Assembly: GCA_013202335.1 (NCBI GenBank)
Contig: JABMQR010000066.1
Location: 1-25,794, forward strand
Direction: 5' to 3'
DNA: 25,794 nt
Source of the DNA: Bacteroidota bacterium
GTDB lineage: Bacteria; Spirochaetota; Spirochaetia; JABMQR01
The position numbers and the translations under genes are program-made. Positions 7,101 to 25,794 of this stretch are shown in pieces. The notes under the pieces were generated by a model. That model searched no databases, had not been told where the DNA came from, and saw only the letters and a program-made list of their open reading frames with translations. Positions within the stretch are counted from its first letter, which is position 1. Each line of letters starts with the position of its first letter.

Positions 7101-7103
7101 ATG

Positions 7104-7213: not shown

Positions 7214-7244
7214 TTGTTAAGATTTTATATTTCTAGTATACTAG
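7214..7244 (+). promoter_or_regulatory. Promoter of the AraC-type gene with overlapping palindrome CTAGTATACTAG
   Basis: TTGTTA (7214-7219), a 17-base spacer and TATACT (7237-7242) form a reasonable housekeeping promoter. The perfect 12-base palindrome CTAGTATACTAG (7233-7244) covers the -10. Its core TAGTATACTA matches TNGTNNACNA, the general operator pattern of FadR-subfamily GntR regulators. It also shares the GTATAC centre of the sites at 14207, 14408 and 23594. The gene's TTTAGGAG ribosome site follows directly. Confidence 0.5.
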
Positions 7245-11421: not shown

Positions 11422-11428
11422 TCTTAAA

Positions 11429-11455
11429 TTATCAGCCCCTTAATGGGGCTGATAA
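11429..11455 (+). terminator. Intercistronic hairpin (attenuator or 3'-end protector)
   Basis: TTATCAGCCCC (11429-11439) and GGGGCTGATAA (11445-11455) form a perfect 11-pair stem with loop TTAAT, seven bases after the binding-protein stop. The following sequence is AT-rich but has no T tract. In binding-protein operons such hairpins usually allow partial read-through and stabilise the upstream message. Confidence 0.7.
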
Positions 11456-11493
11456 ATATAAATTTAAATTGGAGTTATCGGAAGTACATTTTA

Positions 11494-11517
11494 ATGCTTC
11501 TGTTTTTAATTGTATGA
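11494..11517 (+). CDS. Possible seven-codon leader cistron MLLFLIV
   Basis: GGAAG (11480-11484) lies nine bases before ATG 11494, which opens a seven-codon frame. Its TGA stop (11515-11517) overlaps ATG 11514, the best start of the permease, as ATGA. The permease start has no ribosome site of its own, so coupling from this mini-cistron would explain how it is translated. The frame is too short for coding statistics to help. Confidence 0.3.
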   Translation: MLLFLIV

Positions 11518-11600
11518 ATAAACTAACTGACATTAATATTAATAAACTAAACAGTACTAATATCAGTAAACTTGACAGAATTAATATTAATAAACTAAAT
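11505..11600 (+). repeat. Four tandem 24-base units at the 5' end of the permease gene
   Basis: Units at 11505-11528, 11529-11552, 11553-11576 and 11577-11600 share the pattern NNNATTAATATTAATAAACT. Units 2 and 4 are nearly identical over 20 bases. In frame they encode eight-residue repeats of the form (x)(I/T)NI(N/S)KL(N/D): DININKLN, STNISKLD and RININKLN, preceded by a diverged NCMNKLT copy. The unit length is a multiple of three, so gain or loss of a copy keeps the frame. Confidence 0.8.
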
Positions 11601-12518
11601 AAGACTTCACTCAGGAATAAAATTGCAAAATATTGGCTTTTATATGCATTGATTTTGCCGGGATTACTGTATGTATTGATTTTTCGTTATATCCCTTTAT
11701 TAGGCGTGCTCGTTGCATTTAAAAAAGTCCCGACATTTGCCACAATAGAACAAATAATGGCAGCTGAGTGGGTTGGATTGTATCAATTTAAAAAATTTGT
11801 ATCTTCCTATTATTTCTGGAATATTTTAAGAAATACATTTTATTTAGCTGGTTTAAGGATGATTTTTGAATTCGGTCTTCCAATTATACTGGCACTTTTG
11901 ATGAATGAATTGAAAAGTGTAATTTTTAAGCGGGTTGTGCAGACAATCTCATATATGCCCTATTTTATTTCTACCGTAGTCCTGGCAGGACTGGTTTTTA
12001 ATGTGTTATCCCTTCAGTCAGGTATTATCCCTGAAATCGTTAGAAGATTGGGGGGAGATGTAAGGTATTATTTAGGGGATATACGGTCTTTTCGCCCCGT
12101 ATTACTATCAGCAATTATATGGAAAAATATTGGCTGGGGCACAATCATTTATCTGGCAGCTCTATCCGGAATTGATCAGCAGTTATATGAAGCTGCGCGT
12201 ATTGACGGGGCGAACAGATGGGTTCAAACATTAAAAATCTCCCTGCCTTCAATATCATTTGCAGTAGTAATAATGTTTTTGTTAAGAATCAGTGTTGTCT
12301 TAAACCAGGGATTTGAAGAAACATTATTGCTGTATTCACCCGCTGTGTATGAGGTCTCAGATCTTATTGATACTTATGTGTATCGTGTTGGTCTCCTGCA
12401 GAACCAGGCTTCTTTTGGCGCTGCAGTTGGATTATTTAAATCTTTGCTTGCTTTATGTCTGGTTTTACTGTCCAATCTTGTAGCTAAAAAGTATTCAGAC
12501 CATAGTTTATATGGGTAA
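11514..12518 (+). CDS. ABC sugar transporter permease, LplB type, with repeat-bearing N-terminus
   Basis: First membrane subunit of the second importer. From YALILPGLLYVLIFRYIPLL onward it is a normal LplB-type permease with six predicted spans and the ATPase-contact loop EAARIDGANRWVQTLKISLP. Unlike relatives, about 35 polar residues precede the first span; they consist mainly of eight-residue repeats of the ININKLN type. I chose ATG 11514 (334 residues) because its ATG overlaps the TGA of a seven-codon leader that has a ribosome site. An in-frame TTG at 11469 would add 15 residues but has no ribosome site either, so the start is uncertain. The substrate is unknown and presumed to be an oligosaccharide. 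Confidence 0.88.
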   Translation: MNKLTDININKLNSTNISKLDRININKLNKTSLRNKIAKYWLLYALILPGLLYVLIFRYIPLLGVLVAFKKVPTFATIEQIMAAEWVGLYQFKKFVSSYYFWNILRNTFYLAGLRMIFEFGLPIILALLMNELKSVIFKRVVQTISYMPYFISTVVLAGLVFNVLSLQSGIIPEIVRRLGGDVRYYLGDIRSFRPVLLSAIIWKNIGWGTIIYLAALSGIDQQLYEAARIDGANRWVQTLKISLPSISFAVVIMFLLRISVVLNQGFEETLLLYSPAVYEVSDLIDTYVYRVGLLQNQASFGAAVGLFKSLLALCLVLLSNLVAKKYSDHSLYG

Positions 12519-12537
12519 TAAGAGATAAGTATTAATA

Positions 12538-13416
12538 ATGAAAACAGTATCGTTATCCAAAGGTGAAAGAATTTTTAATTTAGTTAATGTAACATTAATG
12601 ATTGGAATTATGGGCATATTCCTTTTTCCATTTTTATCTGTTGTTATGAGCTCTTTTGTATCAACACAAGAATATTTATCCAGAACAGGAATGATCCTGA
12701 TCCCTGAAAAATTTGATTTTTCTGCATACACCATGATATTGAGGAACAAACTTATTTATTCCGCATATACAGTTACTATTTTCAGAACTGTTGTTGGAAC
12801 CTTTTTGCAGATATCTGTAACTACTGCCATGGCTTACGGTTTATCAAAAAATGATTTACCCGGCAGGAGGGTTATTCAATTATTGCTTGTTATGTGTTTG
12901 ATTTTTCCTGTGCAGATTATACCTCAATTTTTATTGGTAAAAAGTCTTGGATTGATTAATTCTGTCTGGTCCATGATTTTCCCATGGATGATGAATATTC
13001 AGTATATATTTTTAATGATTGCTTTCTTTAAACAGATCCCTGTAAGCCTTGAAGAAGCTGCAATCATAGACGGCTGCTCTCATGTCGGGATATTCTTTAG
13101 AATAGTTTTGCCATTAAGTCTCGCTTCAGTAGCTACAATATCCCTTTTTTACGCTGTATGGCATTGGAACTCCTGGTTTGATGCCCAGATGTTTATAAAT
13201 AATTTAAAATTATATCCTATGCAGAATTTACTGAAGAGGATATTGGAAGTTCCTCAATTAGGCGATATCGGAGGCGGTGTTGTAGATGAGCCGCTGCCTG
13301 CAGAATCGATAAAAGGTGCTGTAATAGTCATTACCACTTTACCTATTCTATGTGTTTACCCTTTTGTTCAAAAATATTTTGTAAAGGGATTCATGATGGG
13401 TTCTGTAAAAGGATAA
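12538..13416 (+). CDS. ABC sugar transporter permease, YtcP/LplC type
   Basis: Second permease of the second importer, 292 residues with six predicted spans. The EAA loop reads EEAAIIDGCSHVGIFFRIVL (residues 172-191), and the protein ends in GSVKG as usual for this subfamily. It starts 19 bases after the preceding stop. The ribosome site is weak (AAGAGATAAG at about 12520-12529), so coupling to the upstream gene is likely. No ATPase gene follows. The transcription unit appears to end at the hairpin at 13441-13468. Confidence 0.93.
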   Translation: MKTVSLSKGERIFNLVNVTLMIGIMGIFLFPFLSVVMSSFVSTQEYLSRTGMILIPEKFDFSAYTMILRNKLIYSAYTVTIFRTVVGTFLQISVTTAMAYGLSKNDLPGRRVIQLLLVMCLIFPVQIIPQFLLVKSLGLINSVWSMIFPWMMNIQYIFLMIAFFKQIPVSLEEAAIIDGCSHVGIFFRIVLPLSLASVATISLFYAVWHWNSWFDAQMFINNLKLYPMQNLLKRILEVPQLGDIGGGVVDEPLPAESIKGAVIVITTLPILCVYPFVQKYFVKGFMMGSVKG

Positions 13417-13468: not shown

Positions 13469-13534
13469 GTTTATCTGGATAAGTGGTTACATGAAATTGA
13501 TGAAGTAAGTCGATATTGAAGCATCAAAGAAAAG

Positions 13535-14173
13535 TCAGACATTCTCGCTTATATAGCGTTTGATTTTCCTGGAAAGGTGCCCGTTGATAAACGCAGCCCC
13601 GTCCGGATCCTTATTTATTAGATAGTCAAGGATTTTTTGATGCTCTTCCTGTGTATCTACACCCAGGCTATGATTCATAATCTGATAGAACATATGGCTG
13701 CTTCTAAGGTTAAGACGTTCGAAGAGCTGAATAAGCAGATCATTTCCTGACATGTGAACAAGCTGGAGATGAAACTGGTAATGAACCTGGGCGAATTTCA
13801 TCATATCTATAGGATCACTATCGACAAGATTATCCATCTGTTTTTTAATTTTTTCCATTCTCTGGAAATCTCTGTCTTTTAAATTCTCAATAGCCAGGGT
13901 GAAAGAAAGATGTTCAAGAGAAGCGCGAACCTGCATCAGATCGATGAAATCTTTCTGTGTTTCATTTTTTACATAGGTACCGGATTTTGGCTTGATAATG
14001 ATCAAACCATCATTTTCAAGACGCTTCAGAATTTCCCTGATCGGTGTTCGGGAGCATTCGTATTCCCGTGCGAGCTGTATTTCCGACAGCTTCTGTCCGG
14101 GACGAAACTCATCTGTAAGGATTTTTGATCGGATGGTTTGGTAAATGTCATCGGATCTATTGTTTTTGTCCAT
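13535..14173 (-). CDS. GntR-family transcriptional regulator, FadR subfamily
   Basis: DNA-binding regulator, 212 residues, with an N-terminal winged helix (about residues 8-75, including RTPIREILKRLENDGLI, the hallmark GntR recognition region) and an FCD effector domain. The FCD domain carries histidines in the expected metal or ligand positions (FAQVHYQFHLQL, then EEHQKIL and NGHLSR). FadR-type proteins bind small organic acids, often sugar acids; E. coli NanR is one. Start choice: AAGGAAAGAAG precedes ATG 14173. An upstream in-frame ATG at 14218 would place coding sequence over the promoter and operator. The gene is divergent from the lyase gene at 14435. A consensus FadR-type site lies in the spacer of its own promoter, so it probably represses itself and the catabolic genes. 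Confidence 0.93.
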   Translation of the reverse strand: MDKNNRSDDIYQTIRSKILTDEFRPGQKLSEIQLAREYECSRTPIREILKRLENDGLIIIKPKSGTYVKNETQKDFIDLMQVRASLEHLSFTLAIENLKDRDFQRMEKIKKQMDNLVDSDPIDMMKFAQVHYQFHLQLVHMSGNDLLIQLFERLNLRSSHMFYQIMNHSLGVDTQEEHQKILDYLINKDPDGAAFINGHLSRKIKRYISENV

Positions 14174-14197: not shown

Positions 14198-14226
14198 ATT
14201 TAACATCTTAGTATACAAGATGTCAA
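14198..14226 (-). promoter_or_regulatory. Promoter of the gntR gene with internal operator (14207-14219)
   Basis: On the minus strand TTGACA (14221-14226), a 17-base spacer and TTAAAT (14198-14203) form a good promoter 25 bases before the start codon. The spacer contains CTTGTATACTAAG (14207-14219). This fits the FadR-type pattern TNGTNNACNA and nearly matches the perfect palindrome found before the divergent lyase gene. A protein bound here would block RNA polymerase, implying autoregulation. Confidence 0.7.
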
Positions 14227-14378: not shown

Positions 14379-14407
14379 TTGACAGGCAATATCTTTTAAT
14401 GTATTAT
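14379..14407 (+). promoter_or_regulatory. Promoter of the lyase-sulfatase-oxidoreductase operon
   Basis: TTGACA (14379-14384), a 17-base spacer and TATTAT (14402-14407) form a near-consensus housekeeping promoter. The predicted transcription start is at about 14414, inside the palindrome that directly follows the -10. Confidence 0.75.
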
Positions 14408-14419
14408 CTTGTATACAAG
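14408..14419. promoter_or_regulatory. Perfect palindrome CTTGTATACAAG, probable GntR operator
   Basis: A perfect 12-base dyad lies immediately after the -10 and across the likely transcription start, 15 bases before ATG 14435. Related copies occur in the gntR promoter, twice near the minus-strand sulfatase promoter and just after the nanA promoter. Its position predicts repression. Confidence 0.75.
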
Positions 14420-14434: not shown

Positions 14435-15355
14435 ATGAATAAATCAAAAAAAGAAATAAAAGGATACATAGCTGCAGTCATAGCACCAATGAAGGAAAAT
14501 GGTGATATTTTCCCTGAAAGAATTGTTGATCTGGCAGACTATCTGATTTCTTCAGGTATAGATGGATTATATGTGAATGGGACCACTGGAGAAGGCCCCT
14601 CTCTGACTCTGGAAGAAAGGAATGAGATGACCGATTCCTGGTGTCGTGCTGTTAAAGGCCGGGTACCGGTGATTGTGCATGTGGGAGACAACTCTCTGCC
14701 GGCCGCCAGGCGGATGGCGCGATTTGCTGCCGATGCAGGTGCAGATGTTGTTGCCGCGTTGCCTCCCTGGTACTTCAAACCGGCTACACTGGAACTGCTT
14801 GTAGATTGGATGAAGGTAATCGCCGGAGAAGCATGGGACCTCCCGTTCTATTATTATCATCTTCCGGGAGTTACGGGAGTGGAGTTTGATATGGTCCGCT
14901 TCATGGAACTGGCTTTGAAGGAAATTCCAACTTTTCGTGGGATCAAGTTCAGCTCTTTAAACATTCCCGAATGCCAGGCCTGTGTAGATGCGGGGGGAGA
15001 TGTAGCTAATGTGTTCTGGGGTTGTGATGAAGCGATTCTTACAGGATTCAGTATAGGCTGCTCCGGAGGTGTGGGCAGCACATACAACTTCGCTTTGCCC
15101 CTTTACATCAAAATAAGAGACGCATGGGCAGGCGGAGAACTGGAGATTGCGCGGCAACTCCAGTCCAGAGCTGTAGATCTGGTCAGGATCTGTGGAAAGT
15201 TTGGCGGTCAGCGGGCTTTCAAAGCTATGATGAAGATCATCGGGATGGATTCCGGTCCCAGTCGTCTCCCCATCCTGACTCTAAGCGGGAAAGAGATGAG
15301 TGAATTGGAGATGGATGTAAGGAAGATTGGCTTTTTTGACTGGGGAGTGGAGTAG
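14435..15355 (+). CDS. N-acetylneuraminate lyase-type aldolase (NPL-like, DapA superfamily)
   Basis: Class I aldolase, 306 residues, of the DapA/NanA superfamily. Its motifs resemble animal-type N-acetylneuraminate lyase (NPL) more than E. coli NanA: YVNGTTGEGPSLTLEER (residues 47-63), PFYYYHLPGVTGVEF with catalytic Tyr141, and RGIKFSS with Schiff-base Lys171. Asp198-Glu199 (CDEA) and Ser215 (GSTYN) correspond to sialic-acid-binding residues of NanA. The expected reaction is cleavage of N-acetylneuraminate, or a close 2-keto-3-deoxy acid, to pyruvate and an N-acetyl sugar in the cytoplasm. Start choice: GAGGGTG precedes ATG 14435; starts upstream would run through the promoter and operator. 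One base separates its stop from the sulfatase start, so they are translated together. The exact substrate is inferred. Confidence 0.88.
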   Translation: MNKSKKEIKGYIAAVIAPMKENGDIFPERIVDLADYLISSGIDGLYVNGTTGEGPSLTLEERNEMTDSWCRAVKGRVPVIVHVGDNSLPAARRMARFAADAGADVVAALPPWYFKPATLELLVDWMKVIAGEAWDLPFYYYHLPGVTGVEFDMVRFMELALKEIPTFRGIKFSSLNIPECQACVDAGGDVANVFWGCDEAILTGFSIGCSGGVGSTYNFALPLYIKIRDAWAGGELEIARQLQSRAVDLVRICGKFGGQRAFKAMMKIIGMDSGPSRLPILTLSGKEMSELEMDVRKIGFFDWGVE

Positions 15356-15356
15356 A

Positions 15357-16841
15357 ATGACCGAAGAGAAGACAAAACCCAATGTACTCTGGATCGGACT
15401 GGATCAGATCCGGTACGATACGATCGGCTATTATGGAAATCAGTTCTGTAAGACTCCTTCCATAGATCGACTGGCGGAAAATAGTGTCAACTTTTCCAGG
15501 GCCTACACCACCTGCAGCCTCTGCACGCCAGCCCGGGCTTCCATGTTTACAGGTCAGTACGCTTTCAGGCACGGGATGGGTACGAATTGTGATATGTATC
15601 ACTCTCTTGCAGATGAGCTTCCGGACCCCTCCCGGCTTCTGCATCATCATTTTCTTGATGCAGGATACAGATGCGGATACGCCGGAAAGTGGCATGTGGG
15701 GACAGAAAAAGGCCCGGGAGACTATGGTTTTGAGGGGATGAATCTACCTGGATATGGCAACATTCAGGCCGATGATGGATTTACTACTTACCTGAAGGAA
15801 AACAGCCTTTCTTTTAAACCTGTACCGGAAATTTTTCTCAATCCTGATCGGCAGACTCTAATTGGAGGGCGCTGGGGAGGTCCCCAGGAGTCCACACCGG
15901 CTCATTACCTGGCCAACTACACAATGGATATGATCGATTCCTTTACATCTTCTGCAGATCCGTTCTTTGTTACCTGCCAGTTCTGGGGACCCCATGGACC
16001 TCATATGCCTTCGGATGAATTTTATGGGCTTCATGATCGGGATACTCTTCCACCCTGGGTCAATTTTGATGAAGATCCCGAGTCGAAGCCAAGGAGGATA
16101 AAGAGAGAACGGGACAGTTTTTACAGGAACCACCCGAAGGACTGGGATGCCGGAAAGGAGATTGCCGGTCTCTATTATGACTGTACCAGTATGATCGACC
16201 TGGAAATCGGGAGGCTGATCGACTCTCTGAAAGAAAAAGGTCTTGTAGAAAACACTATCGTTGTTCTGTCAACCGATCATGGTGATATGACCGGTGCCCA
16301 CGGCGGTTTGATTGATAAAGGTCTTCCTTATGAAGAGGTCCATCATATACCTCTTCTTTTTTACTGGAAAGGGAAGTGGAATACCGGTTTCAGGAGCGAC
16401 CTGGCTCTAAATATGGATATCATGCCTACCTTGATGGATCTCTGTGGTATCGATTTACCCGATGATATTGATGGAAAAAGCCTCGTCCCGGCACTTTCAG
16501 ATCTGTCTGACAGGAAGAAAAGGGAAAATGTACTGCTTGAGTTTCACGGACTCAGATTCCTCTATTCCCAGCGAGCAATAGTAACCGACGACGGCTGGAA
16601 GTATATCTTTACTCCAGGGGATTATGATGAGGTCTATAATCTGAAAGAGGATCCTGCTGAACTCCGCAATCTCATAGATAATCCGGCCAGTAGTGGAAAA
16701 GTGGCCGATTTACGGGACCAGATTCGGAAAGCCACCGCAGATGCGGGAGATCCTCTTCGAGACTGTGTGAGTAAGTTCTTCGGCATCTGGTCTACAGGTT
16801 CGGGTCAGATCGATGCCTCCAGGTTCTTCGATAAAAAATGA
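15357..16841 (+). CDS. Type I sulfatase (S1 family), cytoplasmic
   Basis: Formylglycine-dependent sulfatase, 494 residues. The activation motif C-T-P-A-R (Cys56-Arg60, in CSLCTPARAS) marks the Cys to be oxidised by a maturase. Other visible elements are the N-terminal metal ligand region PNVLWIGLDQIRYDTIGYYG, GKWHVGTEKGPGDYG, and STDHGDMTGAHG with the late metal-binding Asp-His pair. The protein starts directly with the catalytic domain and has no signal peptide, so it should act inside the cell. Start choice: GGGGAGTGGAG (15342-15352) precedes ATG 15357; an in-frame TTG at 15327 lies inside the lyase gene. ATGA overlap (16838-16841) couples it to the next gene. Its place behind a sialate-lyase-like gene suggests it desulfates an imported sugar acid or its product. 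The sulfatase subfamily is not determined. Confidence 0.93.
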   Translation: MTEEKTKPNVLWIGLDQIRYDTIGYYGNQFCKTPSIDRLAENSVNFSRAYTTCSLCTPARASMFTGQYAFRHGMGTNCDMYHSLADELPDPSRLLHHHFLDAGYRCGYAGKWHVGTEKGPGDYGFEGMNLPGYGNIQADDGFTTYLKENSLSFKPVPEIFLNPDRQTLIGGRWGGPQESTPAHYLANYTMDMIDSFTSSADPFFVTCQFWGPHGPHMPSDEFYGLHDRDTLPPWVNFDEDPESKPRRIKRERDSFYRNHPKDWDAGKEIAGLYYDCTSMIDLEIGRLIDSLKEKGLVENTIVVLSTDHGDMTGAHGGLIDKGLPYEEVHHIPLLFYWKGKWNTGFRSDLALNMDIMPTLMDLCGIDLPDDIDGKSLVPALSDLSDRKKRENVLLEFHGLRFLYSQRAIVTDDGWKYIFTPGDYDEVYNLKEDPAELRNLIDNPASSGKVADLRDQIRKATADAGDPLRDCVSKFFGIWSTGSGQIDASRFFDKK

Positions 16842-17553
16842 TAAGTGTTAATCAGGAAGTCAGTGATGAAATTCTCCGGACTGCTTCGGCCGAGGCAGAT
16901 ATGGCTGGTATCGCTTCTGTGGAATCCTTTAATGGATGCCCTGAAGGTTCCCATCCGACAGATATTTTTCCCGGATGTCGTTCGATTGTAGTCTTTGCCT
17001 TTAAACACCTGGACACCCTTGCCCGTTCATCAAACAAGAACTGTCAGGCACTATCACAGGATCTGACAAAACACATGGTCATGCATGGAGCCTACAGGAT
17101 TGCCCGGGCACTGGAAGAAAGGGGTTTTCTCGGATTTCCGGTAATCGGTTCGATAAAAATCTGGCCGTTTGAGGGGACGGAGGATTCTGACGGGAGGATA
17201 TCTCTGAGGCATGCGGCTGAAGCTGCCGGTATCGGTGTAATCTCCCGGATTGGAATCGTTCTTACTCCCGATTTGGGCCCAGGATTCAGCTTGGGGCAGT
17301 TCTGACAGATTGTGATCTGATTCCAACCCTGCCTCTGGAAGAGGACCCCTGCATCGGTTGTGACATCTGTATCAGGAAATGCCCCGCCGGGGCGATAGAG
17401 AATCCGCCGGTCGGTGTACGATATCTTAGTGTAGATCAGGATAAATGTCTGAATTACCGAAGAAGGGAAGGGGGGACCTCTCCCCTGGGGTATACCAATC
17501 AGTGCGCCTTATGCCGCTCAGTCTGTCCTGTCGGCAGAATAAGGCACAGCTGA
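16838..17553 (+). pseudogene. Frameshifted 4Fe-4S reductase-like gene (epoxyqueuosine-reductase-like)
   Basis: ATG 16838 overlaps the sulfatase stop as ATGA. The first frame gives 155 residues with features of QueG/reductive-dehalogenase-related proteins: PGCRSIVVFAFKHLD, a central helical part, and RISLRHAAEAAGIG. It then stops at 17303-17305. The continuation lies in another frame from 17296: AVLTDCDLIPTLPL, then a ferredoxin cluster CIGCDICIRKCP and a second partial cluster CALCRSVCP, ending at TGA 17551-17553. The family expects LGAVLTD at the junction; the sequence reads TTGGGGCAG, so one G is missing from the run at 17293-17296. This is a real frameshift, a homopolymer sequencing error or, less likely, programmed -1 shifting. 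The joined product would be about 239 residues, without the HEAT-repeat tail of true QueG. Its role in the operon is unknown. Confidence 0.85.
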
Positions 17554-17600
17554 ATCGAACAGAAGACCGAAATCAGCGGTAGACGAATGAAGGGACAACC

Positions 17601-18599
17601 ATGATTGAGATAGGCCTTATTGGCGCCGGTTTTTTCGGTGAGATGCATGCCAAAGCCATTGTCGATGTAGCGGGAATCAGACTCAAGGCCGTTTCCAGAA
17701 GAAATAAAGATGAACTGGAGAAGATAGCCGCTAAGTATGGAGCAGAAGGTTACCGGGACTGGCAGGAGCTCCTGGCAGATTCAAATATCGATGCCGTTGT
17801 CATAGCGACACCACACCATCACCACACCGAAATTGCTCTGGAAGCAGCCGCTGCCGGCAAAGCCATTTTACTGGAGAAGCCATTGGCTCCCTCCCTGCAG
17901 GAATGCCTGAAGATAGGTGAAGCTGTCAGGAGAAATCAAATAAAGTTTATGGCAGGTTTTGTCAATCACTTTGCCCGGGCTTACCGTCTGGCCAAAGAAA
18001 TGATCATGGCCGGAGAGATCGGCAAACCTGTAATTGGAAGAAGCGTAATGTATAAGAGATGGATGGAACCTAACCGCCGCAGCTGGCACCTCGATCGCAG
18101 CATCGGAGGCGGTATGTGGCTCACAGCGGGAATACATTGTCTGGACCGTCTGACCTGGCTGATTGATCAGCGGGTCGAGAGCGTCAGTGCTCATTTCGGA
18201 ACAGCCTTTCACAGGCAGCAGGCCGATGATCATCAACTCATGCTGCTGCGTTATTCCGGGGGAATTGCTGGAATAGTCAGCTCTGTAGGTTATTCAACAG
18301 GTGCACCGGACCATGAAACCGAGATAGTTGGCACCAGAGGAATTATGCGGATTGATGCTGAGCGCGGTATCAAAATCGGAAAGAATGAAGTCTGGCAGGA
18401 GATTCCGGATACCGGAAGCGTGGATGTAATGCATGAAGCTTTGGTCCGACAGTGGTCTTCTTTTCGGGATATCATGATTAACGATGCAGAGAATTCTGCC
18501 TCTATCGATTTCGCCCTGCACATCATGGAAGTGGTCTTTGCGGCCGAACAATCGGCTCGTGATAAAACCGGGATTTCGATACCTGACAGGAGGATTTAA
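17601..18599 (+). CDS. Gfo/Idh/MocA family oxidoreductase
   Basis: NAD(P)-dependent sugar or sugar-acid dehydrogenase, 332 residues. The Rossmann motif GAGFFGEMHA (residues 8-17) and the family signature ILLEKPLAPS (Glu-Lys-Pro; Lys is near the active site) are clear. WHLDRSIGGGMWLTAGIHCLDRL carries the usual catalytic-region Gly-Gly-Gly and His. AAGGGAC precedes ATG 17601. It follows the frameshifted Fe-S gene after 47 bases and precedes a second member of the family by eight bases. Known relatives in sialic acid pathways (NanOx of Ruminococcus gnavus, E. coli YjhC) interconvert anhydro sialic acid and Neu5Ac. Sequence alone does not prove that activity here; inositol or other sugar dehydrogenase activity is equally possible. 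Confidence 0.9.
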   Translation: MIEIGLIGAGFFGEMHAKAIVDVAGIRLKAVSRRNKDELEKIAAKYGAEGYRDWQELLADSNIDAVVIATPHHHHTEIALEAAAAGKAILLEKPLAPSLQECLKIGEAVRRNQIKFMAGFVNHFARAYRLAKEMIMAGEIGKPVIGRSVMYKRWMEPNRRSWHLDRSIGGGMWLTAGIHCLDRLTWLIDQRVESVSAHFGTAFHRQQADDHQLMLLRYSGGIAGIVSSVGYSTGAPDHETEIVGTRGIMRIDAERGIKIGKNEVWQEIPDTGSVDVMHEALVRQWSSFRDIMINDAENSASIDFALHIMEVVFAAEQSARDKTGISIPDRRI

Positions 18600-18607
18600 T
18601 AACTGAT

Positions 18608-19684
18608 ATGGGTATACATATTGCACTTATCGGTATGTCTCATCCTCATGGAATTCCGTATCTGGAAACACTGCAGAGTCTGAAGGATGTAGAAAGTATT
18701 TATATCTGGGACGAGGACTACAAAGTTCTGGGGGAAATTAAAAGTCAACGTCCCCATAAGATTGCCGGATTCTACAAGGATATTGCCGGGATACTGGTAG
18801 CCCCCCATGTGCAGGCCGGACTGATCGCTCTACCAACAAATCTTATCCCCCCTGTGGCCGGGGAGTTTTTACGCTTAGGTAAGCATGTGCTGGTAGAAAA
18901 GCCGGGTGCCAGACAAGCCGCAGAATTGGCACCAATGGTAAAGCTGGCCGGGGACAGGGGACTGTTGTTTTCTGTCAGTTATCCGCGGCGCTGTAATCCG
19001 GTGGCTTTGGCGATTAAAAACAAAATCAGTATGGGAAGTCTGGGGCGGATCGTCAGCTTCGAAGCCCGCCTGATTGCCTCGCAGGTTAAGTTTCGTAATC
19101 CTGATATGTGGCTTTTTAAAAAAGAGATGGCCGGGGGCGGGATTCTGTCCTGGTTGGGATGCCATTTGATAGATCTGCTGCGTTTCTGGCTGGGGGATGA
19201 AGTTGAGTCTGTATCCTGCCAGTCGGCTAATCTGAGCGGCGAGCCGATCGATGTGGAAAACACGATCTGTATGACTCTTCGGTTCTCTCGTGGAAGTATT
19301 GGTACCATGCGGCTGGGGTATCATCTTCCGGTCAGTAAAGCCGGGTATGTAGGCGGCAGCAAAGATACCTACCTGTGTGTCGAAGGTACCGACGGATTCG
19401 TGCGTTGGACACCCAGGGGAGAACAGTCAGAAGAGTATGAGTTTCAAAGTGTGCAGTCTCCAAACCGGGGTAATGGACTGACCAGAGAGTTTATTGAGAC
19501 AGAGGAAAAAAAGGGCTACTGTGGTTATGAAGGCTGGGCCTTTGTGCGGCAATTTGTTCAAGCTGTGGATTCCGGAATCACTGCTGCGGTCGTCAACGGC
19601 CAGGACGCCTTAAACACATTGAAAGTGATCGATGCTGCTTATCTGGCCAGCGAAAACGGCCGGACCGTAATCCTGGACCATTAA
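18608..19684 (+). CDS. Gfo/Idh/MocA family oxidoreductase, divergent nucleotide-binding loop
   Basis: Second putative dehydrogenase of the operon, 358 residues. The family signature HVLVEKPGARQ is present, as is the GGGILSWLGCHLIDLLRFWL segment. The N-terminal loop reads ALIGMSHPHGIPYLETL instead of G-x-G-x-x-G, so cofactor binding may differ or be weaker. AGGAGG (18588-18593) lies 14 bases before ATG 18608, rather far. The gene is the last of the plus-strand operon and converges on the EamA gene 35 bases downstream. Two such enzymes side by side often act in succession (oxidation then reduction) or on two epimers. I cannot tell the substrate. Confidence 0.85.
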   Translation: MGIHIALIGMSHPHGIPYLETLQSLKDVESIYIWDEDYKVLGEIKSQRPHKIAGFYKDIAGILVAPHVQAGLIALPTNLIPPVAGEFLRLGKHVLVEKPGARQAAELAPMVKLAGDRGLLFSVSYPRRCNPVALAIKNKISMGSLGRIVSFEARLIASQVKFRNPDMWLFKKEMAGGGILSWLGCHLIDLLRFWLGDEVESVSCQSANLSGEPIDVENTICMTLRFSRGSIGTMRLGYHLPVSKAGYVGGSKDTYLCVEGTDGFVRWTPRGEQSEEYEFQSVQSPNRGNGLTREFIETEEKKGYCGYEGWAFVRQFVQAVDSGITAAVVNGQDALNTLKVIDAAYLASENGRTVILDH

Positions 19685-19719
19685 AGGCTGCTGAGTGCAG
19701 AAACTCAAAATTTGAACTT

Positions 19720-20646
19720 TTAGGTTCTGTTGGCCCGGGAAGCTCTAAGTGAAGGCAGTATAATTGCCAGATAGCAGCCTGTAAGGATAACGGCTCCGGA
19801 AATCCACTGATACAATGAAAGCGTCTCTTTCAGCAGCAGATAACTGAAAATGGAAGTAACTACCGGTGCGGCCAGGCTCAGAACATCATGATAGATGATC
19901 CCGCTGTTTCTTATAATAAAAAAAGCAATCCCCATTCCGGTGAAAAGACCGAACACTCCCGAAAAGATAAGCATACCGATCTCTCCGGGAGAATATCCTG
20001 TAAGAGAAGGTCCACCTTCAGTGAACCAGGAGATAAGAAAAAAGAAAATGCAGGACCAGAAGGAGGTGAATATGCTTGTTGTATGCACTGAAATCCCGGC
20101 AATATTTTTCTTGATCATGATATTCTGGAATCCCCTGACAATGATAACTATGGAAAAGAAAATCCAGGCGCTAACATAATTATTTCCATTCTCACCCCGA
20201 CTTCCGGATTGAATAAAAAAATATGTCCCGGCGAGAACCAGTATGAGACCTGCTTTGAAGAGGCGGGAACCAAAAAGTTTTCGCTCTTCTTTGAAAACTG
20301 ACATGGTCATAATGATTATAAAAGGCAGACTCACCACTTTGACCAGACTGCCTGTGGTGGCATCCGACAGGGAAATGCCTCTGATAAAGGCATACATGTT
20401 AAGTGTAAGGAGGACGGCTATTATCAGGCTGCCAAGAAGGAATCTTCCCGAACGAATGGCTGTCATTATCTCACTTCCCTTTTTCCTTAGAAAAAGAAGA
20501 ATCAGAAGTCCCAGAAATCCGGAAAGAAATCTCCAGGCATTCATGGTTGCACTTTCGAAGCGGACCGAAAGGTATCTGAGTATAATTATTGAAATTGAAA
20601 TCAGAATGACATAAGTAACAGAAATAGACAGATTTTTAACTTTCAA
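19720..20646 (-). CDS. EamA-family (DMT superfamily) membrane transporter
   Basis: Ten-span membrane protein, 308 residues, built from two EamA repeats, a family of metabolite exporters or exchangers. Visible parts include a first span ISVTYVILISISIIILRYLS and, in the second half, WISGAVILTGCYLAIILP near the C-terminus. The start appears to be TTG 20646, whose bases overlap the TGA of the upstream sulfatase (TTGA, four-base overlap). No later in-frame ATG would keep the first span. Coupling to the sulfatases suggests it moves a substrate or waste product of the same pathway, but its direction and cargo are unknown. Confidence 0.87.
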   Translation of the reverse strand: MKVKNLSISVTYVILISISIIILRYLSVRFESATMNAWRFLSGFLGLLILLFLRKKGSEIMTAIRSGRFLLGSLIIAVLLTLNMYAFIRGISLSDATTGSLVKVVSLPFIIIMTMSVFKEERKLFGSRLFKAGLILVLAGTYFFIQSGSRGENGNNYVSAWIFFSIVIIVRGFQNIMIKKNIAGISVHTTSIFTSFWSCIFFFLISWFTEGGPSLTGYSPGEIGMLIFSGVFGLFTGMGIAFFIIRNSGIIYHDVLSLAAPVVTSIFSYLLLKETLSLYQWISGAVILTGCYLAIILPSLRASRANRT

Positions 20647-22085
20647 GGATTCTGTATTTCCCTGATAAGCGGATCAGCCGTATTGTCCATCCAGTTTATT
20701 AGTTTCTCGTGAAGAGTTGCAGCTTGAATCTGATATTCCTGCTTATCTTCGAGGTTTTCCATCTCATAAGGGTCCTCTTTCAGATCATAGAGTTCCTGTC
20801 GGTCATCCCTGTTCCAGATATATTTATACCTGCCATCGGTAACCATCCTCCATTCCTTTTCACCATGGAAGGGACCTAAGGGTTTATGTTCGCTGAACAG
20901 GTCCCTGGTTGTTGTATTTTTCTGCTCAGTATGATTTCCCAGCAGATCGATACCTTCATACACTTCCGGACATTCCAGGTTTGCTGCCCTAAGAATTGTC
21001 GGAGGAATATCGAGCAGAGAGGCCCCCTCGATACTGCATTTGTCTCCCTGAATTGTAGGGCTGCTGATAATTAGAGGGACCTTCAGAGATTCTTCGTAGG
21101 CCTGCATCTTATGCCAGAGTCCATGCTGACCAAGCATCTCTCCATGATCACTGGTGTAAATAACCATGGTGTTGTTGAAGATGCCCTGACTGTCCAGTTC
21201 ATCCAGAAGCCGGCCCACCTGGTGATCGATGAAGGACACGAACCCGTAGTAAACAGCAACACTCTTTTTCCATGCTTCCCAGTTATCTCCATGGTCCAGC
21301 CATAACTGACGGTAAAAGCTATCCTTTTTTGACTCCGGCTCTCCATCCGATGGGTGGAAATTCGGCGGCTCGGGAATATCATCAGGGGAATACATACTGT
21401 ACCAGGGCTCCGGAATCATGAAAGGGGGATGAGGTCCGTTGAATCCACAGGTAATAAAGAACGGCTTGTCTGCAGGGCGCTCTTTAAGATACCCCAGGGC
21501 TATGTCCGTAATCCAGGAATCGTTGACTTTTTCCGGTTTTACAGGATTTACTTTGGTTTTTGGAATGGACATATGGGGAACCCTCCGGGAACGAACCTCA
21601 GGATCTTTAAGAGGCCATCCTGTTTCGGGTAATCCATTGTGGGTAAGCCATCTTACATAATCCTGGTTGTCAAAGCCGTGGGCATCTTCAAACCAGTCTG
21701 TAATTATGTCGTTGCCCAGATGCCATTTGCCTGCATATGCCGTGTAATATCCCCCCTTTTTCAGTGCATTTGTTAGTAGAGGAGGTTCCCTCAGAGAGGT
21801 CGTGTTGATCATCATGTCAGTTTCTATGCCTGCTTCCATATAATCCCGTGCGCCCAGTGCTTCCTCTTCCAGAATCCCTTTTGCCTGATGAGAATAAAGG
21901 CTTGTAAAAAGAGAGGCCCTGGCGGGCCCGCATAAAGGACAGGGTGTGATGGCATTATCGAAGGATATACCGTTTTTCTGCAACCGGTCGATATTGGGAG
22001 TTTTCACCGGTGCTTTTCCGGCAAATCCCAGGCAGTCCTGTCTGTGCTGATCAGCAATGATAAGCAGGATATTATTAGGTATCAT
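20643..22085 (-). CDS. Type I sulfatase (S1 family), cytoplasmic
   Basis: Second formylglycine sulfatase, 480 residues. The activation motif C-G-P-A-R (Cys52-Arg56, in CPLCGPARAS) is intact. The N-terminal metal ligand segment is NNILLIIADQHRQDCLGFAG. AYAGKWHLGND and YTSDHGEMLGQHGLWHKMQ provide the conserved Lys/His and late Asp-His ligands. It has no signal peptide. ATG 22085 is preceded by AAAGGAAC. It lies 48 bases downstream of the first minus-strand sulfatase and overlaps the EamA gene, so the three form one operon. It clearly differs from both other sulfatases, suggesting a different sulfate position or substrate rather than a recent duplication. Confidence 0.94.
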   Translation of the reverse strand: MIPNNILLIIADQHRQDCLGFAGKAPVKTPNIDRLQKNGISFDNAITPCPLCGPARASLFTSLYSHQAKGILEEEALGARDYMEAGIETDMMINTTSLREPPLLTNALKKGGYYTAYAGKWHLGNDIITDWFEDAHGFDNQDYVRWLTHNGLPETGWPLKDPEVRSRRVPHMSIPKTKVNPVKPEKVNDSWITDIALGYLKERPADKPFFITCGFNGPHPPFMIPEPWYSMYSPDDIPEPPNFHPSDGEPESKKDSFYRQLWLDHGDNWEAWKKSVAVYYGFVSFIDHQVGRLLDELDSQGIFNNTMVIYTSDHGEMLGQHGLWHKMQAYEESLKVPLIISSPTIQGDKCSIEGASLLDIPPTILRAANLECPEVYEGIDLLGNHTEQKNTTTRDLFSEHKPLGPFHGEKEWRMVTDGRYKYIWNRDDRQELYDLKEDPYEMENLEDKQEYQIQAATLHEKLINWMDNTADPLIREIQNP

Positions 22086-22133
22086 TATTTTTGTTCCTTT
22101 TGTGCTGAAGTATTTGAATAGTAGTTTGTCTGT

Positions 22134-23576
22134 TCATGAGAATCTCCACCCCCGTTGGGCGCTTAATCCCCTGTTGGGAGGAAAGGTATACTCCTCCACA
22201 GGCATTCCGGTGAGTCTGTCTTCGGTGATCCAGTCCAGGTCCGATCCATACAGTTCATCAATTAGAAGCAGAGAGAGTTCTGTTAACACTTCTTTATATT
22301 CGGTCCTTTTCGAAAGATCGGTGAGTTCACGGGGATCTGCTTTCAGGTTAAAAAGGTGGAAATGGTTTCCGGCAGGATAATAGATTAGTTTCCAGGATCC
22401 TTTCCTGATCATTCGCTGGGCTCTCTGGTCTTCAAAGTGCTCTCCATAGTAGTGGTTTCTGGTTTCCTCTCCCACCAAAGATTTCCCTTCTGCTGTTGCA
22501 GGCAAATCGATTTCACACATTGTAAGGAGAGTGGGGAGAATATCCTCGTGGCCGCATAGACGGGAATCTACTGTTCCGGGAGTTTGGAATCTGTATTTGG
22601 CTGTATCAACCAGGATCATGGGAATTTTTGCGGAATATTCGAAAAAATACGGCTTTGCCCATAAATAGTGGTTACCGAGCATATCCCCATGGTCGGAGGT
22701 GAATAGAAGAATTGTGTTATCCAGGAGGCCTTCCTCTCTCAAAGTTCCTATCAGCAGCCGGATCTGATGATCGATATAGGTACATTGGGCGTAAAAACCC
22801 ATCCGGCTTCTCTCAATACTTTTATCGTCTCCCGGTGACGGCTTCTGATGACGCCTTATCTTCAGTGCCTGGGGTAGAGATTCATCATCACACCAGCTTC
22901 CGTGAAAAGGCGGATCTGCCCCTCTGTGTTCATATAAGTTAAGATATTCGGCCGGGGGTGTAACCGGAGGATGAGGTGCAGAGTAGGAGCAGTACCAGAA
23001 TGCAGGACGGGTAGGATCTCTTCGCACAATTGTGCGGCACATATTTCGGGTTGTCCAGTTTGTCGGGTGGAGTTTTTCAGGCAGATGCCATGGACGGCAC
23101 AGATATTCATTGTTTCCCATTCCATGGGTAAGTTCCTGTCCGGTATATCCCTCTTTTGCAAGATCCATTTCATAATCATCTTTTATCATCCCTAAATGGT
23201 GTCTGCCCTCTTCATTTAAGAGAACATCATCAAAGCCTGCCCGGTCTCTCTGGGGATACACGTGCATCTTACCAACAGCAAAACTCTGGTACCCTCCTGA
23301 GCGGAAACATTCGGCCAGGGTTGGAATATACTTTGGCAGGGGGAGTGTTTCATTGAATAAACGGTCTCCATGGGTTTTAGCTGCTGTTCCTGTCATGATT
23401 GATCGCCGGGCAGGTATACATGTGGGAGTCTGGGCATAGCACTGATCGAATCGAACTCCGCTGTGACAGAGTTCATCCAGTGTAGGTGTCTCGATGAAGG
23501 AGTTTCCGGCTTCGCCCATCAGAAGTCCCGGCCAGTGATCTACACAGATCATGAGTACGTTGGGTTTTTCTGTCAT
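22134..23576 (-). CDS. Type I sulfatase (S1 family), cytoplasmic
   Basis: Third formylglycine sulfatase, 480 residues, first gene of the minus-strand operon. The activation motif is C-I-P-A-R (Cys53-Arg57, in TPTCIPARRSIMTG). The opening PNVLMICVDHWPGLLMGEAG has Asp13-His14 where others have Asp-Asp or Asp-Gln. AVGKMHVYPQRDRAGFD and FTSDHGDMLGNHYLWAKPYF complete the active-site pattern. It has no signal peptide. AGAGGA precedes ATG 23576. The promoter (TTGACT-16-TATACT) overlaps an operator-like GTATAC palindrome, so it is probably controlled together with the divergent nanA. Sulfatases of this DHW type occur in polysaccharide loci, but the target cannot be named. Confidence 0.94.
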   Translation of the reverse strand: MTEKPNVLMICVDHWPGLLMGEAGNSFIETPTLDELCHSGVRFDQCYAQTPTCIPARRSIMTGTAAKTHGDRLFNETLPLPKYIPTLAECFRSGGYQSFAVGKMHVYPQRDRAGFDDVLLNEEGRHHLGMIKDDYEMDLAKEGYTGQELTHGMGNNEYLCRPWHLPEKLHPTNWTTRNMCRTIVRRDPTRPAFWYCSYSAPHPPVTPPAEYLNLYEHRGADPPFHGSWCDDESLPQALKIRRHQKPSPGDDKSIERSRMGFYAQCTYIDHQIRLLIGTLREEGLLDNTILLFTSDHGDMLGNHYLWAKPYFFEYSAKIPMILVDTAKYRFQTPGTVDSRLCGHEDILPTLLTMCEIDLPATAEGKSLVGEETRNHYYGEHFEDQRAQRMIRKGSWKLIYYPAGNHFHLFNLKADPRELTDLSKRTEYKEVLTELSLLLIDELYGSDLDWITEDRLTGMPVEEYTFPPNRGLSAQRGWRFS

Positions 23577-23593
23577 ATAGAATCCTCTTTAAA

Positions 23594-23623
23594 CTAGTAT
23601 ACATCAGGTTTTGGAAGAGTCAA
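23594..23623 (-). promoter_or_regulatory. Promoter of the sulfatase-sulfatase-EamA operon with overlapping operator-like site
   Basis: On the minus strand TTGACT (23618-23623), a 16-base spacer and TATACT (23596-23601) lie just before the ribosome site of the first sulfatase. GATGTATACTAG (23594-23605) overlaps the -10. It keeps the GTATAC centre and one half of the palindrome seen at 14408 and 7233. Confidence 0.6.
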
Positions 23624-23648
23624 TAGGTATTAGCATAATATTATGAAA

Positions 23649-23660
23649 CATGTATGCAAG
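23649..23660. promoter_or_regulatory. Operator-like site CTTGCATACATG (minus strand)
   Basis: It matches CTTGTATACAAG at 10 of 12 positions and lies about 25 bases upstream of the sulfatase -35 element, in the divergent region before nanA. As a second site it could support cooperative binding or looping. Confidence is moderate because it is imperfect. Confidence 0.4.
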
Positions 23661-23818
23661 TGAAGCTCTATGGAAAATGGAACTCCCCTTAAGAATTTGA
23701 TGTTGGGGTGTAAAAGAATCAGTAGATACTGGTGTATTCGATTATACTAGTGGAATTTTGTGATTAAATAGCCTGGAATCAGGATTGTTTAGAAAAGAAG
23801 AATAATTAAAAATGTGAC

Positions 23819-23847
23819 TTGATTTATATTGTAAAAGCATTTATACT
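23819..23847 (+). promoter_or_regulatory. Promoter of nanA-yhcH
   Basis: TTGATT (23819-23824), a 17-base spacer and TATACT (23842-23847) form a good promoter, with a predicted start near 23854 and an operator-like palindrome directly after. The 316-base gap 23577-23892 holds this promoter, the divergent sulfatase promoter and three operator-like sites; I see no gene in it. Confidence 0.65.
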
Positions 23848-23855
23848 TATCAGAT

Positions 23856-23867
23856 CTTGCATACAAG
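23856..23867. promoter_or_regulatory. Operator-like palindrome CTTGCATACAAG before nanA
   Basis: It differs at one position from the perfect palindrome at 14408-14419 and has the same place relative to the promoter: at the transcription start and upstream of the ribosome site. An in-frame TTG at 23857 lies inside this site and is therefore not a credible start for nanA. Confidence 0.65.
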
Positions 23868-23892
23868 AAATGTGATAATAGCAGAGGCCAAT

Positions 23893-24777
23893 ATGGATAT
23901 AAGTAGATTTAAAGGTATTTTTCCAGCACTTCTAACCCCTTTCGATGAAAAGGGTAAAATAAACAGAGATTCAGTTCAGAAACTGGTTGATTACTGCCTG
24001 GACCAGGGTGTTGACGGGTTCTATGTCGGCGGGAGCACAGGTGAAGCCTTTCTGCTCACACTTGAAGAAAGAAAGGAACTCATTGAAGCGGCATTGGAAG
24101 CAAATGCCGGCCGGAAGACTGTTATATGTCAGGTTGGTGCTGTTGGTACCGCAATGGCCATCGAACTGGCAAAGTGGGCGGAGACAAAAGGAGCGGATGC
24201 AATTTCAGCTGTAGCTCCCTTCTACTATCCCTTTACCAAAGACCAGGTTATCAACCATTATATGGCTGTAACGGACAGCGTTTCGCTGCCAATGATTGTT
24301 TATAATATTCCAGGACTCTCAGGCGTCAATCTTACAGAAGATGACTTCAAGCGTCTGTATAAACACAAGAGGATAATCGGTGTTAAGCACACCCACCATA
24401 ATCTCTTTGAAATGGAAAGGATCAAGTCGATCGATCCTGAACGGCTGATCTTTTTCGGATTTGACGAGGTGACCCTTGCAGGTATCTCCATGGGTGCAGA
24501 TGGTGCGATCGGCAGCACCTTCAACCTGATGGCTGGAGACTTTATCAAGCTGAAAAAATTGTTTTCAGAAGGTAAGAACACAGAAGCGCTGGAAGTTCAG
24601 AAGGGAATCAACGAGATTATAAGCGTCTTTCTCCCACTGGGGATTTTTGCTGCCCTGAAATATGCTCTAACCTCCCGAAGGGATATTCCCATGGGCGATG
24701 TTCTGGCTCCTTTTACACCACTGGATGAAAAAGGGAAGCGAAAGGTCGACGAGGCCCTAGAAAAATATGGTATATGA
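23893..24777 (+). CDS. nanA: N-acetylneuraminate lyase
   Basis: Cytoplasmic aldolase that cleaves N-acetylneuraminate to N-acetylmannosamine and pyruvate, 294 residues (E. coli NanA is 297). The match is unusually exact: YVGGSTGEAF (residues 44-53), SAVAPFYYPF, VYNIPGLSGV with catalytic Tyr137, and GVKHT with Schiff-base Lys165. Thr167, Asp191, Glu192 and Ser208 fall at the same numbers as the substrate-binding residues of the E. coli enzyme. Start choice: AGAGG (23883-23887) precedes ATG 23893. The gene overlaps yhcH by 11 bases. It differs clearly from the other lyase at 14435-15355. No nanK or nanE is in the window, so later steps would be encoded elsewhere. Confidence 0.94.
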   Translation: MDISRFKGIFPALLTPFDEKGKINRDSVQKLVDYCLDQGVDGFYVGGSTGEAFLLTLEERKELIEAALEANAGRKTVICQVGAVGTAMAIELAKWAETKGADAISAVAPFYYPFTKDQVINHYMAVTDSVSLPMIVYNIPGLSGVNLTEDDFKRLYKHKRIIGVKHTHHNLFEMERIKSIDPERLIFFGFDEVTLAGISMGADGAIGSTFNLMAGDFIKLKKLFSEGKNTEALEVQKGINEIISVFLPLGIFAALKYALTSRRDIPMGDVLAPFTPLDEKGKRKVDEALEKYGI

Positions 24778-25225
24778 TAGAATTGACAACCTGAAGACCT
24801 ACAAGGGTCTTTTTCCCTTGATCTTGGGATTGGATGGATTTATCAGCAGGAACAATCTGGCTGCTCTCGATGACGGAGAGCATGAAATTGTTGGCAAAGA
24901 TCTGTTAGTCAGGGTGATGGAGTATGAAACTGTTGCAGAGGATGCATCAGTCTATGAATGTCATCGTGATTATCTTGATCTGCATCTGATTCTTAAAGGC
25001 AGGGAGGGAATTTCCTGCCTGGTGAACGATAAGCTTTCAATAAATCGGGAATACAACAAAGAGGAGGATACAATACTTTTCGAAGGAAATGAGGGGAAGA
25101 AACACCATTTGATCCCCGGCGACTTTCTTCTTCTGTTTCCTCATGAAGCCCATCTTCCCGGTCTGTCAGTTAATAATGTATCTGAAAAAGTGAGGAAAGC
25201 TGTTTTCAAAATACGACACCCCTAG
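24767..25225 (+). CDS. yhcH: YhcH/YjgK/YiaL family protein, sialic acid anomerase-like (NanQ)
   Basis: Small cupin-fold protein, 152 residues, of the YhcH/YjgK/YiaL (DUF386) family. E. coli YhcH (NanQ) speeds the opening and anomer change of sialic acid, supplying the form used by NanA. Family landmarks are YECHRDYLDLHLILKGRE (residues 62-79) with the His and Glu that would bind metal or substrate, LFPHEAHLPG with the second His pair, and the C-terminal KAVFKI. ATG 24767 lies within the end of nanA (overlap of 11 bases), so the two are translationally coupled. The pairing supports a true sialic-acid role for this nanA. Confidence 0.92.
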   Translation: MVYDRIDNLKTYKGLFPLILGLDGFISRNNLAALDDGEHEIVGKDLLVRVMEYETVAEDASVYECHRDYLDLHLILKGREGISCLVNDKLSINREYNKEEDTILFEGNEGKKHHLIPGDFLLLFPHEAHLPGLSVNNVSEKVRKAVFKIRHP

Positions 25226-25235
25226 ATAATATTGA

Positions 25236-25256
25236 ACACCGGCGTGTAGGCTTTTT
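25236..25256 (+). terminator. Weak terminator candidate after yhcH
   Basis: ACAC (25236-25239) can pair with GTGT (25244-25247) around CGGC, followed by AGG and a short T run (25252-25256). The stem is very short, so this is only a candidate. It starts 11 bases after the yhcH stop. Confidence 0.25.
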
Positions 25257-25323
25257 AAAAGACACTAATGATTACTCTTGTAATCTTAAATGTGGAAACT
25301 TTCATCGTTCCCAAAATTGCCGA

Positions 25324-25344
25324 AAATTGAACTATGTTCAATTT
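25324..25344. repeat. Perfect dyad AAATTGAAC-TAT-GTTCAATTT
   Basis: Nine-base arms with a three-base centre form a perfect inverted repeat in the 259-base gap between yhcH and the XRE gene. No strong promoter is evident nearby, so it could be an operator or the remains of one. Nothing else recognisable is in 25226-25484, apart from a small GATTAC/GTAATC hairpin at 25270-25285. Confidence 0.5.
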
Positions 25345-25484
25345 CTACTGAAATTCCTCCAAGGCCTCTCTTCTCCTCTACTAACAAGACAAAGAGATGT
25401 TTTAAATATATTCCAGAAATTGATTTATCTGTTCTTGGAGTGCAGAAAACTTGCCGAAGATAAGTTCATTTACAGGGAACTAGA

Positions 25485-25736: not shown

Positions 25737-25794
25737 GGGTGTACGACAATTTTGTTATTTAAGCAGATTTTTTCCGATTAGCCATAAAATCATC

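Follow-up and report, generated by a model that had tools for sequence, protein, structure and literature searches.

Why would a bacterium keep sulfatases inside the cell beside enzymes that cleave sialic acid? The question is raised by a stretch of 25,794 nucleotides, called the window below (positions 1 to 25,794, forward strand, of contig JABMQR010000066.1, assembly GCA_013202335.1, deposited as Bacteroidota bacterium and placed by GTDB in the Spirochaetia, JABMQR01). A preliminary description had read the genes at 14435-25225 as a candidate intracellular pathway for sulfated sialic acids. Our answer is tentative. The region may be one GntR-controlled catabolic regulon for sulfated sialic acid; we prefer this explanation at somewhat less than an even chance, and it is nearly tied with a regulon that scavenges host glycans. 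The sialate lyases and the common regulator are better supported than when they were proposed. Action of the sulfatases on sialic acid is about as likely as action on other sulfated sugars released together with it.

The gene inventory of the preliminary description (lyases, a YhcH protein, sulfatases, Gfo/Idh/MocA enzymes, an EamA transporter and a regulator) was borne out by family models and by the list of open reading frames (ORFs) of the window, where these genes are open, complete and located as described. There are four transcription units on both strands: the plus strand carries NPL1-S1-[4Fe-4S]-Gfo1-Gfo2 and, separately, aldolase 2 with the YhcH gene, the minus strand carries S3-S2-EamA, and the fourth unit is the GntR-FCD regulator. 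S1 immediately follows NPL1, apparently within the same operon, and a divergent intergenic region is common to S3 and aldolase 2. The gene starts are our choice (14435 for aldolase 1, as in P0001; 15357 for S1; 23893 for aldolase 2; near 14173 for the GntR gene), the ORF list having longer frames. The features are as follows.

9847..13416, plus strand: Lpl-type ATP-binding cassette (ABC) importer comprising a lipoprotein and two permeases, named by sequence reading; candidate for uptake
13535..14173, minus strand: GntR-FCD regulator (Pfam GntR 67.5 bits, FCD 73.8 bits); ORF listed from 14218, a start near 14173 being likelier
14435..15355, plus strand: aldolase 1 (NPL1), predicted NPL-type sialate lyase, from nearest PDB matches, signature residues and neighbours of relatives
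15357..16841, plus strand: sulfatase S1, Cys-type, without export signal
16838..17550 (end approximate), plus strand: 4Fe-4S protein with a weak QueG/RdhA-like C-terminus, split between two frames
17601..18599, plus strand: Gfo/Idh/MocA oxidoreductase 1 (Gfo1), from family models
18608..19684, plus strand: Gfo/Idh/MocA oxidoreductase 2 (Gfo2), from family models
19720..20646, minus strand: EamA-type transporter (PF00892), overlapping S2 by 4 bases
20643..22085, minus strand: sulfatase S2, Cys-type, without export signal
22134..23576, minus strand: sulfatase S3, Cys-type, without export signal; nearest solved structures 9koq (E. faecium arylsulfatase) and 7oz8 (BT1918, S1_46)
23893..24777, plus strand: aldolase 2, predicted NanA-type sialate lyase (PRK04147, signature residues); ORF listed from 23857
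24767..25225, plus strand: YhcH/YjgK/YiaL protein (TIGR00022), possible sialic acid anomerase

The 4Fe-4S gene was absent from the earlier gene account. Its start overlaps the S1 stop in ATGA, and its frame changes near 17278-17305, by pseudogene formation or sequencing error.

Both aldolases are predicted to be of the sialate-lyase type, as had been proposed. In a profile search they are proteins of the dihydrodipicolinate synthase (DHDPS) fold. Aldolase 2 passes the NanA model PRK04147 (325.9 bits, cut-off 281) and misses the stricter TIGR00683 (279.9, cut-off 382); among solved structures an N-acetylneuraminate lyase matches it best, and it was aligned to 8u8w. Aldolase 1 misses both NCBIfam cut-offs (PRK04147, 146.1 against 281; TIGR00683, 119.8 against 382) and is therefore not filed as a bacterial NanA equivalog. 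Its nearest solved structure is 6arh (193 bits), followed by 6h4e (putative) and 5afd, all named N-acetylneuraminate lyases; we take 6arh to be human NPL and 5afd the chicken enzyme. Sialate specificity is defined by the motifs G[ST]TGE, Y, K, G-x-DE and GSTYN/GSTFN. All five motif positions were checked, and the signature is present in both aldolases, in aldolase 2 as GSTGE, Y, K-x-T, G-x-DE and GSTFN. It is also found in 22 of 26 aligned relatives (20 locus genes and six database proteins), L115, L117, L131 and L133 departing from it at one position at least. On this signature, assignment to the 2-keto-3-deoxygluconate (KDG), 2-keto-3-deoxy-6-phosphogluconate (KDPG) or DapA types was rejected; activity on KDG/KDPG-type acids only, named earlier as an outcome that would undo the proposal, is disfavoured by the sequence.

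The genomic context of NPL1 relatives points the same way. At least one sialic-acid-type neighbour was found in 12 of 19 loci (three from Spirochaetota, one from Phycisphaerales, 14 from further Planctomycetota and one from a Pseudoalteromonas plasmid): N-acylglucosamine 2-epimerase (AGE) in seven, a sialidase-like BNR-repeat protein in four, YhcH in one and, on the Pseudoalteromonas plasmid, an annotated set of sialidase, NagA and NanR. These counts have no chance control, and the epimerase and BNR query sequences came from two of the same 19 loci. With this reservation on neighbour counts, the NPL1 family is, as read from its gene neighbourhoods, used in sialic acid loci. Relatives are found in all 12 of the genomes searched at 1e-3, which admits any DHDPS-fold protein, in one of ten at 1e-40, in 3 of 344 Spirochaetota at 1e-55, and in 14 of 246 Planctomycetota at 1e-65, where they occupy 15 places, 14 of them taken with flanks (G729 was left out) on contigs of which several are short. 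In the planctomycete loci L120, L124, L126, L127, L128 and L129 a relative of N-acetylglucosamine (GlcNAc) 2-epimerase lies near the NPL1 relative, mostly with a protein of about 900 residues in between. Sulfatases lie near the NPL1 relative in 4 of the 14 planctomycete loci. Planctomycete genomes are probably rich in sulfatases and these copies look exported by eye, so they were not counted as support.

Other sialic acid functions are less sharply defined. The protein described as a NanQ-type anomerase does belong to the YhcH family (TIGR00022, 105.5 bits against 45.5); it falls short of the NanQ model NF040884 (93.6 against 160), and the name NanQ was given up for YhcH/YjgK/YiaL. Identification of the oxidoreductases with NanOx or YjhC was likewise rejected: Gfo1 matches 6z3b and 6o15, neither as its best, Gfo2 matches 6o15 weakly, and the closest solved relative is not RgNanOx or YjhC.

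The three sulfatases are intact Cys-type enzymes without signal peptides, in agreement with the preliminary description. S1, S2 and S3 match PF00884 above the cut-off, and each contains the formylglycine motif C-x-P-x-R (CTPAR, CGPAR and CIPAR, respectively). The sulfatase domain starts at residue 5-8 of the likely start in all three, which leaves no room for a signal peptide; by absence of signal, the enzymes are predicted to be intracellular. No sulfatase maturase (FGE or anSME) was recognised in the window. The structure matches of S1 and S2 are to many sulfatases, PsS1_NC being the best, and no substrate follows from them.

What ties the sulfatases to the lyases is a candidate operator. 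Comparison of the GntR/NPL1 and S3/aldolase 2 intergenic regions yielded one near-identical stretch, ATCTTGTATACAAG versus ATCTTGCATACAAG, of 14 bases with one mismatch (0.2 expected in shuffles). It is a GntR-type palindrome, and the GntR operator of B. subtilis contains the same palindrome. In the two regions it follows the second hexamer of a sigma-70-like promoter at a distance of 0 and 8 bases. The sequence had no match in the literature searched. The sites in the window are:

7233..7244: perfect operator-like palindrome CTAGTATACTAG, just before the AraC-type regulator gene (7258-9639)
14208..14219: operator-like palindrome with two mismatches, in the GntR leader
14379..14419, plus strand: promoter-like TTGACA-17-TATTAT, then perfect palindrome CTTGTATACAAG (14408-14419), upstream of aldolase 1
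23594..23623, minus strand: promoter-like TTGACT-16-TATACT of the S3-S2-EamA unit, with a three-mismatch operator-like site at 23594-23605
23649..23660: second operator-like site, two mismatches, in the S3/aldolase 2 intergenic region
23819..23867, plus strand: promoter-like TTGATT-17-TATACT, then palindrome CTTGCATACAAG (23856-23867), upstream of aldolase 2

With at most two mismatches, CTTGTATACAAG occurs five times in the window (0.97 expected), and 0 of 100 shuffles reached five. All five sites fall in the 9.8% of the DNA that is non-coding. The expectation there is 0.13, and four or five were reached in 0 of 2000 simulations. This count depends on the gene starts chosen; if the longest listed ORFs are used instead, three of the sites come to lie inside frames, at the 5' ends of those of GntR, NPL1 and aldolase 2. 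The motif was derived from two of the five sites, and three are independent: those in the GntR leader, at the second position between S3 and aldolase 2, and before the AraC-type regulator. With three mismatches there are 23 sites, mostly in coding DNA, one of them overlapping the S3 promoter. For the shorter core TTGTATACAA with two mismatches there is no clear enrichment (24 sites, 16.7 expected; this number is reached in 8 of 100 shuffles).

The recurring sites therefore support one regulon that takes in the sulfatases, with a putative GntR operator. The earlier proposal of one shared regulator is thus strengthened, and mere proximity was rejected as the basis of the link. We infer that the GntR protein would bind these sites and that the one at 7233..7244 would belong to the same regulon, which perhaps also includes the ABC importer. 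The regulator itself scores 54.4 bits with the NCBIfam NanR model, against a cut-off of 260; the name NanR was rejected, and the protein is kept as GntR-FCD only.

On the preferred reading, a small sulfated sialic acid would enter via the ABC importer. The YhcH protein may open the sugar ring, and one of the two sialate lyases would split the acid to pyruvate and N-acetylmannosamine (ManNAc). The cytoplasmic sulfatases would desulfate either sialic acid before cleavage or ManNAc (or an epimerised hexosamine) after it; a 9-O- or 7-O-sulfate would land on O6 or O4 of ManNAc, respectively. Oxidised, anhydro or dehydrated forms would be the task of the Gfo/Idh/MocA enzymes. Among those window ORFs that were scanned, no glycoside hydrolase was recognised, and thus an imported monosaccharide is the simplest substrate. 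A stronger version of this reading is a dedicated pathway: the free sulfated sugar would be taken up, and S1, S2 or S3 would then work within the cell as true sulfatases of sialate (or of sulfo-ManNAc), each at a sulfate position of its own. We consider that version doubtful.

Several observations weigh against sulfatases dedicated to sialic acid, and action on sialic acid itself, as originally suggested, is unsupported by the distribution of their relatives. Firstly, among the best 120 matches per search, with contig sharing judged by matching contig size in bases and source, relatives of S1 and S2 occur together on at least 11 contigs in addition to the window (16497, 29627, 10597, 7111, 7126, 30862, 14531, 33147, 64141, 263694 and 23793 bases), with Chloroflexi and Anaerolineae among the names. 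NPL1 and S2 relatives share one contig of 95962 bases, the matches at 1817 and 2178 bases being too short for both genes, and NPL1 and S1 relatives share the window only, a match at 7931 bases coming from different sources. S1-S2 thus looks like an old pair, mostly lacking a close NPL1 relative among the best matches. Secondly, on a plasmid of Sinorhizobium chiapasense a relative of S1 (52% identity) lies with a pair of DHDPS-fold proteins that lack the sialate-lyase signature. Thirdly, three S3 relatives (about 50%) on plasmids of Salipiger, Paracoccus and Paraburkholderia lie in import loci without sialic acid genes. Fourthly, the characterised sequence closest to S3 is BT1918 (S1_46, 7oz8) of B. 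thetaiotaomicron, a 3-O-sulfo-GlcNAc (3S-GlcNAc) sulfatase. Finally, no ManNAc kinase, epimerase or sialidase was recognised in the window. Sulfatases from clades with proven unrelated substrates had been named as grounds for refutation, and S3 goes half way there: BT1918 is distant, ranking second at 232 bits after 9koq among its solved relatives, and it is periplasmic. It acts in heparan sulfate breakdown (PMC10154612, PMC10154620).

In the closest competitor, the lyases take unsulfated sialic acid, the sulfatases take other sulfated sugars from the same mucin-like or glycolipid material (e.g. 3S- or 6S-GlcNAc, 6S-galactose), and one regulator senses the mixture. This regulon for scavenging host glycans is a serious possibility that we also place below even. 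It is consistent with the relationship of S3 to BT1918, with the S1-S2 pair occurring mostly off NPL1 contigs, and with sulfatases located beside sugar importers elsewhere. A plasmid locus of E. faecium (L143) carries a relative of S3 (34%, arylsulfatase) together with a GntR regulator, beta-galactosidase, a mannose-type phosphotransferase system (PTS), a SPASM protein, which may be a sulfatase-activating enzyme, and a TauE-type exporter; by its gene content this is apparently a sulfated-sugar uptake locus. An S1-like gene of Arthrobacter (34%) adjoins SIS, ROK, hexose kinase and aldolase genes, and one in Cetobacterium (30%) comes after GntR and PTS genes. Given such plasmid loci, sulfatases next to sugar importers are of a known kind. 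On the other hand, the surroundings of the sulfatases in the window showed no recognisable glycosidase and no recognisable gene for hexosamine or galactose catabolism.

The remaining matches are less informative. The plasmid records with a tblastn match that were opened are 4 of 18 for S1, 6 of 28 for S3 and, by its own match, 0 of 21 for S2. The Klebsiella S3 match is a partial gene amid insertion sequence (IS) elements, the Chelativorans S3 match lies beside conjugation genes, and the Halorussus S1 match has no recognised sugar genes alongside. At 1e-80 no S2 relatives were found on plasmids, and the scans of viral contigs revealed no relatives. A genome-contig scan with S2, using generic patterns, gave, among the matches listed, only relatives of at most 33% identity; a DHDPS-type neighbour occurs in 2 of 80 listed S2 loci (L045 and L055), neighbour scoring having covered 92 loci, of which 12 had been taken with the aldolase as query. 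S2 was found in 0 of 344 Spirochaetota at 1e-70 and in one of 251 Chloroflexota at 1e-90 (41% identity), where relevant neighbours were not found. S1 at 1e-100 was found in 0 of 50 genomes of the S2-scan loci, 0 of 248 from the family of the Phaeobacter genome and 0 of 210 from that genome's class; at 1e-90, in 0 of 46 genomes of the Spirochaetaceae genome's order; and at 1e-85, in one of 118 genomes from the class of the Phycisphaerales genome (39%, apparently with an export signal). A further sample gave 0 of 3. The empty scans prove little: their samples were without a genome known to carry a close relative, and where a genome is rich in sulfatases, scoring covered only part of the candidates from the first look. 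A marine origin, also suggested earlier, finds no support: the closest S1 and S2 relatives with a group name are called Spirochaetales.

One further possibility is another sulfated 2-keto-3-deoxy acid, such as sulfated 2-keto-3-deoxynonulosonic acid (Kdn) or a related nonulosonate. The absence of ManNAc genes would then be accounted for, since mannose is the cleavage product of Kdn; indeed, nanE, nanK, nagA and nagB were not recognised in the window. However, nan and nag genes may lie elsewhere in the genome, both aldolases have the N-acetylneuraminate lyase signature, and their relatives adjoin AGE, BNR or nag genes. The S. chiapasense locus (NZ_CP133152.1, 416787-442238) counts in favour of this reading. 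Besides the S1 relative it contains a second Cys-type sulfatase and the two DHDPS-fold proteins, which are of another subgroup. Its GntR regulator scores best with the NanR model, below the cut-off (109.8 against 260), and its ABC importer, recognised by eye, is Dpp-type, unlike that of the window. The operator was not found there beyond chance. At 2128-13482 and 15736-21342 of this locus (L132) these genes lie beside a predicted pseudaminic acid biosynthesis cluster (PseB and PseI above cut-off). All in all, another acid of this kind is improbable. Least probable of all is that a sialic acid unit merely adjoins an unrelated sulfate-ester or sulfur-scavenging unit: there are four units on two strands and these sulfatase clades have relatives in unrelated loci, but S1 follows NPL1 directly, S3 and aldolase 2 share their upstream region, and the operator-like site recurs.

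How does the putative sulfated-sialic-acid regulon compare with known systems? The nan loci for sialic acid catabolism include nanATEKQ of E. coli, nan of R. gnavus and nanLET of B. fragilis. The window resembles them in having a sialate lyase, a YhcH protein, an FCD-type GntR regulator and Gfo/Idh/MocA oxidoreductases (as RgNanOx and YjhC). It differs by three cytoplasmic sulfatases in the regulon and by two lyases of different types, and it has no recognised sialidase, NanE or NanK. The plasmid locus of Pseudoalteromonas sp. HL-AS2 (NZ_CP133572.1) contains a relative of NPL1 (36%) with sialidase, NagA, NanR and symporters; however, no sulfatase is annotated in the fetched stretch, and TonB receptors and SSS symporters take the place of the ABC importer. 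In the E. faecium, Salipiger, Paracoccus and Paraburkholderia plasmid loci an S3-type sulfatase lies beside an importer and a regulator, but no sialic acid genes are annotated.

Two complete Lpl-type ABC importers in the window were read by eye, at 1868-5300 and 9847-13416, the lipoprotein of the latter having no NCBIfam match. A MATE-family transporter gene (5531-6901) lies between them. There is a sensor kinase at 126-1778, and the AraC-type regulator, which is membrane-bound, precedes the second importer. Downstream of the YhcH gene, at 25226-25794, an apparent partial helix-turn-helix gene, read by eye, runs off the contig end on the minus strand.

Sulfated sialic acid has been reported from sea urchins and from vertebrates, mammals included, and sialic acid sulfotransferase genes are described as widespread in deuterostomes (PMC9304399). 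The authors of a 2023 review knew of no report of a microbial sulfatase that acts on sulfated sialic acid (PMC10017367); a positive assay of a sialate sulfatase would therefore be new. Our literature search, with most subscription papers outside its reach, found no such enzyme either. If the preferred reading is true, the enzymes would complete the turnover cycle of a sugar modification that has been little studied, and would provide tools for detecting and removing sialate sulfate. Even if the sulfatases serve the scavenging of other host sugars, the locus would be a clean example of intracellular desulfation tied to the use of sialic acid.

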